Source of the DNA: Bacteroidota bacterium
GTDB lineage: Bacteria; Bacteroidota; Bacteroidia; Bacteroidales; UBA7960
Direction of reading: 5' to 3'
DNA: 64,000 bases
Assembly (NCBI GenBank): GCA_007694165.1
Contig: RECE01000241.1
Coordinates: forward strand, 1-64,000
Shown here one piece after another: positions 1 to 50,321 of this stretch. A program made the translations under genes and the position numbers. Under the pieces are notes generated by a model. It was not told the DNA's origin and searched no databases. It was given only the letters and a program-made list of their open reading frames with translations. The stretch's first letter is position 1; each line of letters starts with the position of its first letter.

Positions 1-385
1 GGACGAGAACCATGTAATTATTTACACTGCTCTTGCCCGGTCGGGACTCCAGGTTCCCGTCCGGGCTAATATAATGCTCCACTCAATTAGTCCGGAGGCG
101 AGCTGGAAGTCGCCACCGGACGAGAACCATGTAATTATTTACACTGCTCTTGCCCGGTCGGGACTCCAAGCTCCCGTCCGGGCTAAGACAATGCACCACA
201 TTTTAATCCGGAGGCGAGCTGGAAGTCGCCACCGGACGAGAACCATAGCCTTGTTGTAACTACACTGTGCGGAGTTTAGTGGCGGGGTCACTGGAAGTGG
301 CCCCGTCACAAGAAGACGAGCTGGAAGTCGTCTAACTACTGCGCGGAGTTTAGGTGACGGGGTGACTAAGGCTCACCCCATCACT
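1..385. repeat. REP/BIME-like mosaic of imperfect palindromes, including about 2 tandem ~117-bp units
   Basis: GGACGAGAACCATGTAATTATTTACACTGCTCTTGCCCGGTCGGGACTCCA... starts at 1 and again at 118, with a third partial start at 234. Hairpins by eye: 35-66, 90-121, 152-183, ~206-237, 279-309, 314-333, 354-384. Confidence 0.85.
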
Positions 386-401
386 AAAACTGCAAATATA
401 A

Positions 402-432
402 AAAGCCCCCTGACTTAGCATCAGCGGGGCTT
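402..432 (-). terminator. Rho-independent terminator downstream of the EF-G paralog
   Basis: Minus-strand AAGCCCCGCTGA...TCAGGGGGCTTTTTATATTT hairpin with a T-tract, 25 nt past the stop codon. Confidence 0.75.
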
Positions 433-456
433 CTATTGTTAGCGAATTTAGAAAGA

Positions 457-49322: not shown

Positions 49323-50321
49323 ATGATAATCAACCCCAGAAACTATTTTCAAGACAGTTTGTCGTTGCTGAAAAAGATCACCCCCGGCAGGTTTTGGAAT
49401 TATATTAAAATTCTGTTTTCCTACAAACTCTCAAGGATAAGAAAGCACCCGTATATCTGGGCAGGACCTTTTTCTCTGAGCTTTGAAACCGCATCTGTCT
49501 GCAATCTGAAATGCGCTGAATGTATGGCCGGCCAGGGAAAAGTAATCCGCAACCGAAAGCTTATGAAGCCTGAAGTGGCCCTTGAAAAGCTGGAGCTTCA
49601 CCGCCAGAGTGCTTTTTACTGTAACCTGTATTTTCAGGGTGAGCCCTTTCTTCATCCTGAAATCTATGCCATCATCCGATCTGCCGCAGAAAATAAATAC
49701 TATTCGGTAATTTCAACTAATGGCCATTTTCTTGATGAAAAAAATTGCCGCGAAATTATTGAAAGTGGTCTTAGCAGATTGATTGTTTCACTGGATGGAC
49801 TGGAACAGGAAACCTATGAGACATACAGGAAGGGAGGCAGTTTTGAAAAAGTTGCAGCAGGCATACTGCGATTGTCGGAGATGAAGAAAGAGGTGCGATC
49901 CCCTCATCCCTTTCTGGTAGTTCAGTTTTTGGTTAATAAAACCAACGAACATCAAATGGGAGATGTGGAAAAATATGTAAGAACCCTGGGGGCTGACAAG
50001 CTCGATTTTAAAAGTATGCAGATATATACTGAGCGGGGCATAAAGGAATTTAGCCCCCTGAATAAAAAGTACAACCGATATAAGGACGGAGAAAAAGGCA
50101 GGAATACGCTTTCGGGCTGCTTCAGATTATGGAGTCATATGGTCTATACGAGTGACGGGGAGGTGGTTCCCTGTTGTTACGATAAAATTCCGGAATACAG
50201 CACAGGCAGCACAGAGTCTTCGCCCCGGGAGCTTTGGAAAAGTCCTGCTATGCAGGATTTTCGAAAGGTGTTGCTTGCAGGAGAACAGACGCCTTCCATT
50301 TGCAGCAATTGCGGCGGATAA
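49323..50321 (+). CDS. Radical SAM/SPASM domain protein
   Basis: CNLKCAEC radical SAM motif; C-terminal CFRLWSHMVYTSDGEVVPCCYDK...CSNCGG. Confidence 0.92.
   Translation: MIINPRNYFQDSLSLLKKITPGRFWNYIKILFSYKLSRIRKHPYIWAGPFSLSFETASVCNLKCAECMAGQGKVIRNRKLMKPEVALEKLELHRQSAFYCNLYFQGEPFLHPEIYAIIRSAAENKYYSVISTNGHFLDEKNCREIIESGLSRLIVSLDGLEQETYETYRKGGSFEKVAAGILRLSEMKKEVRSPHPFLVVQFLVNKTNEHQMGDVEKYVRTLGADKLDFKSMQIYTERGIKEFSPLNKKYNRYKDGEKGRNTLSGCFRLWSHMVYTSDGEVVPCCYDKIPEYSTGSTESSPRELWKSPAMQDFRKVLLAGEQTPSICSNCGG

Follow-up and report, generated by a model that had tools for sequence, protein, structure and literature searches.

The first 390 positions of the window, the 64,000-nucleotide stretch analysed here (contig C168 of a 5.27-Mb metagenome-assembled genome, G000), carry seven hairpins. 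We read them, with a probability of about 0.86, as a mosaic BIME/REPIN-type REP array of a RAYT system, in which the REPs are, or were, mobilised as ssDNA and the apex is probably read. The hairpins have many copies, are polar and extragenic, are linked to a RAYT gene and are missing from the corresponding sites of sister genomes, and they combine a fixed apex with covarying stems. The first-pass annotation had proposed REP/BIME sequences with a RAYT; the copies, the covariation, the extragenic position and a RAYT gene on contig C85 flanked by the same hairpins support this proposal. None of the three outcomes that it had named as refuting was observed. The genome assembly consists of 395 contigs with 8.3% contamination, and the copy counts given below rest on genome searches and on individual loci.

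Hairpins of the array and the site between EF-G and ileS

All seven imperfect palindromes of the first-pass annotation are present where it placed them (Table 1), and tag-blind scans, by way of the polar TTA, confirmed its strand order of -,+,-,+,+,+,-. Six of the seven are full REP-like units, made up of a 5' TTAG or a close variant, a stem of ~12 bp and an apex around CT-NNN-AG, and the one at 314-333 is truncated. The stem families along the array are D, E, D, E, B, A (truncated) and C. Folding as ssDNA gave z values of -4.4 to -6.3 for six hairpins, with none of 200 shuffles equally good, and the truncated hairpin folds weakly (z -2.3; 3 of 200 shuffles as good). Pairing at 279-309 does require two G.T pairs, in agreement with the wobbles proposed for it. 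The tag-blind hairpin scan of the genome's loci showed TTA before 20 of 20 stems of family E and 31 of 34 of family D, with CTC or CTT on the opposite side. As in REPs, the foot carries a polar 5' tetranucleotide, TTA+G standing on one side only, and in the genus of the window this foot is TTAG or ATAG. The claimed sharing of an apical sequence stands in a refined form: the common apex is CT-N2/3-AG, usually with one extra 5' purine, and AGCTGGAAGTC is one form of it only. Rfam gave no match anywhere in the window, and TRF did not report the array; the sole tandem repeat from TRF in the window is a two-copy 26-bp tandem duplication at 50233-50282.

Table 1. Features at the start of the window, with folding scores and scores from covariance model R1
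Feature	Position	Strand	Sequence and remarks	z	R1 (bits)
REP, stem family D	35..69	-	TTA-GCCCGGACGGGA-ACCTGGAG-TCCCGACCGGGC; A.A mid-stem mismatch	-5.0	45.3
REP, stem family E	87..121	+	TTA-GTCCGGAGGCGA-GCTGGAAG-TCGCCACCGGAC	-4.5	54.2
REP, stem family D, second copy	152..186	-	loop GCTTGGAG	-5.5	48.3
REP, stem family E	204..237	+	degenerate foot TAAT in place of TTAGT	-4.4	45.3
REP, stem family B	276..309	+	TTA-GTGGCGGGGTCA-CTGGAAG-TGGCCCCGTCAC; two G.T pairs	-6.3	46.0
Truncated hairpin AGACGAGCTGGAAGTCGTCT	314..333	+	inner part of stem family A	-2.3	missed
REP, stem family C variant	354..387	-	TTA-GTGATGGGGTGA-GCCTTAG-TCACCCCGTCAC	-6.1	36.0
Rho-independent-type terminator of EF-G gene	398..435	-	between EF-G gene and array; kept in sister genomes; separate from REP array		
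EF-G-like gene, 711 aa	457..2592	-	anchor for orthologous-site comparison		

Comparison of the orthologous sites in six sister genomes (G002, G004, G007, G008, G009 and G011) showed the EF-G gene, its terminator and then ileS, which is the neighbour of EF-G there. Model R1 found no REPs between EF-G and ileS in these six, against six in the window locus. The end of contig C56 holds the 5' end of ileS together with the same array, and exactly 28 bases are common to C56 and the start of C168, in line with the earlier suggestion that the array continues beyond base 1; the two contigs very probably join at this point. On this comparison the array, several hundred bases overall, is a lineage-specific insertion, because the six sisters keep the EF-G/ileS neighbourhood without it.

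Copies in the genome and the RAYT genes

A BLASTN search with positions 1-400 gave 73 matches in the genome. Exact searches for stem cores gave 24 copies of D, 19 of E, 49 of B/C and ~19 of A-type, with no match in the genome for the reversed-pattern control. Like REPs, the hairpins are thus short (20-40 nt) imperfect palindromes in many copies, at least 110 by exact core over five stem families, and almost all are extragenic. Among 48 copies checked, 46 lie outside ORFs of at least 120 aa, which cover 75% of the same loci, and the loop motif is not accounted for by a translated protein, an explanation that the first-pass annotation had named as one that would overturn its reading. An exact search for ACTGGAAGT gave counts near background (82 vs 47 for the reversed control), so the loop cannot serve as a diagnostic on its own. 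The copies also form doublets in defined orientation, as in BIMEs and REPINs, with A-/D+ spaced by exactly 40 bp five times and D-/E+ by 47-48 bp four times. Two other kinds of palindrome were seen: a dispersed repeat, AGCGGAATTTGTAACCGACCGCAGGGAGCTCAACGAAGTTAATTCCGCT, in loci L013, L015 and L016, which is unrelated to the TTAG hairpins, and a further family, AAACCTTGGAGGTTT..CCTCCAAGGTTT, in several loci of the own genome.

Searches with R1 found REPs in 12 of the 12 genomes of the genus, from at least 2 to at least 73 matches each; outside the genus, matches are rare among those listed. The further genomic copies on which the earlier reading depended are therefore present in the genome and throughout these genomes. 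The B/C cores number 49 in G000, 25 in G007 and at most 9 elsewhere, and G000 and G007 are the two genomes with a B/C-flanked RAYT. The stem types of the own genome are paired in 95% of cells and have a covariation score of 0.765, against 0.195 when shuffled, although these counts (A1/A2) are partly circular, the members having been preselected as hairpins.

The genome contains one closely related RAYT (Y1) gene, on contig C85 (locus L033, 3622-4269), which answers the earlier call for such a gene. Its protein has the HUH motif NHFH and the catalytic-tyrosine motif YILFNP, of the Y..NP type expected of a RAYT. It matches the NCBIfam family REP_Tyr_transpos at E 1e-14, below the curated cut-off (NF047646, 54.6 bits vs 80, a database threshold and not a biological criterion), and is found weakly by PF01797. 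A profile match links the RAYT to PDB 4er8, a TnpA-REP (E 7e-6), and 4er8 is also the best PDB match (E 4e-6) of the AlphaFold prediction for a GTDB relative (pLDDT 84). The 4er8 structure shows a RAYT bound to a REP hairpin. The C85 gene is flanked on both sides by C-type REPs on the plus strand and B-like REPs on the minus strand, with three exact copies of the C core and B/C variants. Such flanking by cognate REPs (a REPtron) is seen in the own genome and in relatives; in sister genomes, each RAYT stands between hairpins of its own, whose stems differ and whose apex is unchanged.

Profile searches found no second gene of C85 type in the own genome and no RAYT of C85 type in G003, G005 or G006, three genus members that carry tens of REPs, one of which (G006) is listed as 100% complete. 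REPs thus persist in these genomes without a detectable RAYT of this type. Stems of families D, E or F were found beside no RAYT, so their mobiliser remains putative. A second, divergent RAYT (38% identical) lies on C230 (L083, ~1799-2458; relatives in L087, L088 and L094). It is missed by PF01797. A different long hairpin, GGAACTTCCAGCTTGC...GCAACTGGAAGCTTCC, borders it and its relatives in tandem units of ~100 bp. An IS200-type Y1 gene of 147 aa on C65 (L034, 2325-2768) has no TTAG hairpins nearby.

Apex and stem across Bacteroidota RAYT loci

A scan of contigs from GTDB genomes gave 552 RAYT relatives, and 80 loci were kept. Two tests were built to avoid the circularity of preselected hairpins. 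For the first, sites were selected by the apex only (GACTN1-5AGTC), and the pairing of nine bases on each side was then scored. This apex occurs at 1.06/kb up to 600 bp from the RAYT gene, at 0.83/kb inside it and at 0.055/kb beyond 900 bp. The flanking bases pair at 7.4 of 9 positions in place, compared with 4.2 of 9 when arms are swapped between loci; the stem covariation of the first-pass annotation, partly circular in the own genome, thus recurs at these 80 loci. For the second test, all 16 two-base apices were allowed, and at least 9 of 10 flanking bases had to be paired. The CT-NNN-AG apex was present in 86 of 90 hairpins near rayt genes and in 44 of 46 inside them (130 of 136), from 57 of the 80 loci, and the loop of these hairpins is Y-N-R.

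Analysis of 89 distinct arms showed a 13-bp stem that ends in A-N-T, with A in ~95% and T in ~88% of the feet, and pairing falls to 57% at position 5 from the apex. The foot is (T)A-N-T phylum-wide. The window's own genus has a variant form of the apex, which often has an extra 5' purine and often a loop other than Y-N-R. Stems of RAYTs more than 70% identical are alike (0.89-0.93 identity), and those of distant loci are nearly unrelated (~0.5 best identity of 8 nt). RAYT and stem identity are correlated only above ~70% RAYT identity; overall, the Mantel test between the two was not significant (r 0.084, 159 of 2000 permutations). The stems change freely and the tip is constant across the phylum, which suggests that the hairpin tip is what the enzyme reads. 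No published account of this apex rule was found in the accessible literature.

The chief competing explanation is that the fixed apex reflects common descent of one repeat family, the stems having drifted with compensation and nothing recognising the tip. The like stems of closely related RAYTs agree with such descent. However, drift would erode the apex as fast as the stem, whereas 130 of 136 hairpins retain the apex while distant stems are at ~0.5 identity, and pairing itself is held in the 89 distinct arms. We consider this explanation unlikely. That the hairpins act chiefly in transcripts, as attenuators, terminators or stabilisers of mRNA 3' ends, with the spread incidental, is less likely still. 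Such a role would fit the extragenic copies, the G.T pairs kept in the B and C stems, which pair as G-U in RNA, and the partial transcription of known REPs (PMC3733652, PMC12306157). Yet the array follows the EF-G terminator and is absent at the same site in sisters, so it is no conserved regulatory element, and both polarities stand side by side. The hairpins are moreover concentrated around and inside rayt genes, and no Rfam family corresponds to them; the structured RNA family that the first-pass annotation offered as an alternative is not needed.

It is very improbable that the hairpins derive, as ends or MITEs, from a different mobile element, for example the IS200-like element of C65 or the second RAYT of C230. 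The enzymes of both are Y1 and are encoded in the same genome, but there are no such hairpins near the C65 gene and the C230 RAYT has its different long hairpin, GGAACTTCCAGC...GGAAGCTTCC. Integron attC-like sites, with variable sequence and conserved structure, have a negligible probability: folded single-strand recombination sites with variable stems are known (an analogy in PMC8266576), but inspection showed no GTTRRRY core sites, no cassette ORFs lie between the hairpins and a RAYT adjoins the same hairpins. In all, attC sites, IS200 ends and protein coding were considered for the hairpins and rejected.

In the preferred reading of a RAYT-mobilised array, the insertion lies between the terminator of EF-G and the promoter of ileS, and each REP is a polar hairpin with a 5' foot of TTAG or a close variant, a 12-13-bp stem with a mid-stem mismatch and the apex CT-NNN-AG. 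The REPs would be non-autonomous and would be, or have been, mobilised as ssDNA by a Y1 HUH transposase of the RAYT/TnpA-REP type, presumably the product of the C85 gene with its B/C-type REPs. Contacts of the RAYT with the folded REP strand are most likely made at the CT-YNR-AG tip, the irregularity in mid-stem and the A-N-T foot, and the stem would be free to drift provided that pairing is kept. Apex recognition by the RAYT, and its cleavage and strand transfer, are what we infer from the sequences. One RAYT may also use all the stem families, and an enzyme serving several of them would give arrays of mixed families. In its general form, that Bacteroidota RAYTs of C85 type recognise REPs through an apex code, CT-YNR-AG, together with an A-N-T foot, and leave the stem free, we give the proposal even odds. 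If true, it would allow many stem families per enzyme, leading to mosaic arrays and rapid REP turnover.

Only in groups 2 and 3 has the recognition of REPs been dissected, and the two gave contrary results on whether the loop is read. Here evolution has supplied an experiment in the form of dozens of RAYT loci whose stems differ and whose apex is shared. The apex rule is a directly testable account of how a domesticated transposase picks its substrate, and the apex can serve as a signature in searches for REPs that would be overlooked by GTAG-based tools.

Relation to known REP systems

The system shares with IS200/IS605 ends (IS608, ISDra2) a Y1 transposase that reads a folded hairpin and a 5' guide sequence, but no element bounded by a pair of left and right ends is present here, and the repeats are dispersed and non-autonomous. 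The E. coli REP/BIME and TnpA-REP system of group 2 (PMC8266576, 4er8) likewise has a polar REP strand, a 5' tetranucleotide and a mid-stem irregularity. Both systems have mosaic doublets and a single REP-flanked RAYT gene, and the modelled protein fold is the same. However, the E. coli foot is GTAG, and the sequence of the loop goes unread by E. coli TnpA-REP, which needs the mid-stem bulge and GTAG (PMC8266576), whereas the apex is conserved here. In the group 3 systems of Stenotrophomonas and Marinomonas, loop bases are essential for the enzyme (PMC8266576), which is the precedent for the apex recognition proposed here; those systems differ in their short perfect stems, their GTAG foot and their RAYT group.

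A further likeness is to RAYT group 4 of Bertels, which is TnpAY1 subclass 2.4 of Quentin et al. 2018 (PMC6006769). That paper gives REPs inside the rayt gene as the hallmark of the subclass, reports a GT[AG]G foot and lists the motifs WQ and YIxNNP. Compared with this description, the present system agrees in its occurrence in Bacteroidota, the NHFH HUH motif, the variable region between the HUH and Y motifs, the long hairpins and the paired 'double foot'. It also agrees in the in-frame REPs inside rayt, with 44 CT-apex hairpins in 80 rayt genes; REPs in frame between the HUH and Y motifs are found in relatives and are absent from the own C85 copy. The foot differs, being (T)A-N-T, or TTAG/ATAG in the genus, and not the GT[AG]G of GTAG-type REPs (Di Nocera 2013), which is canonical for the subclass. 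The own protein has FRE in place of the listed WQ, and YILFNP in place of YIxNNP; the genus has FRE or FRK with YILFNP, and two relatives from other families have YIHNNP. The sharing of one apex by several stem families, which occur together with a single RAYT of this type, also sets the present system apart from the subclass as described there. Placement of the C85-type RAYT by these features is thus a matter of resemblance, in which the in-gene REPs match and the foot, WQ and YIxNNP differ. The kind of system is one already known, REP/BIME with TnpA-REP, and its RAYT resembles group 4/subclass 2.4.
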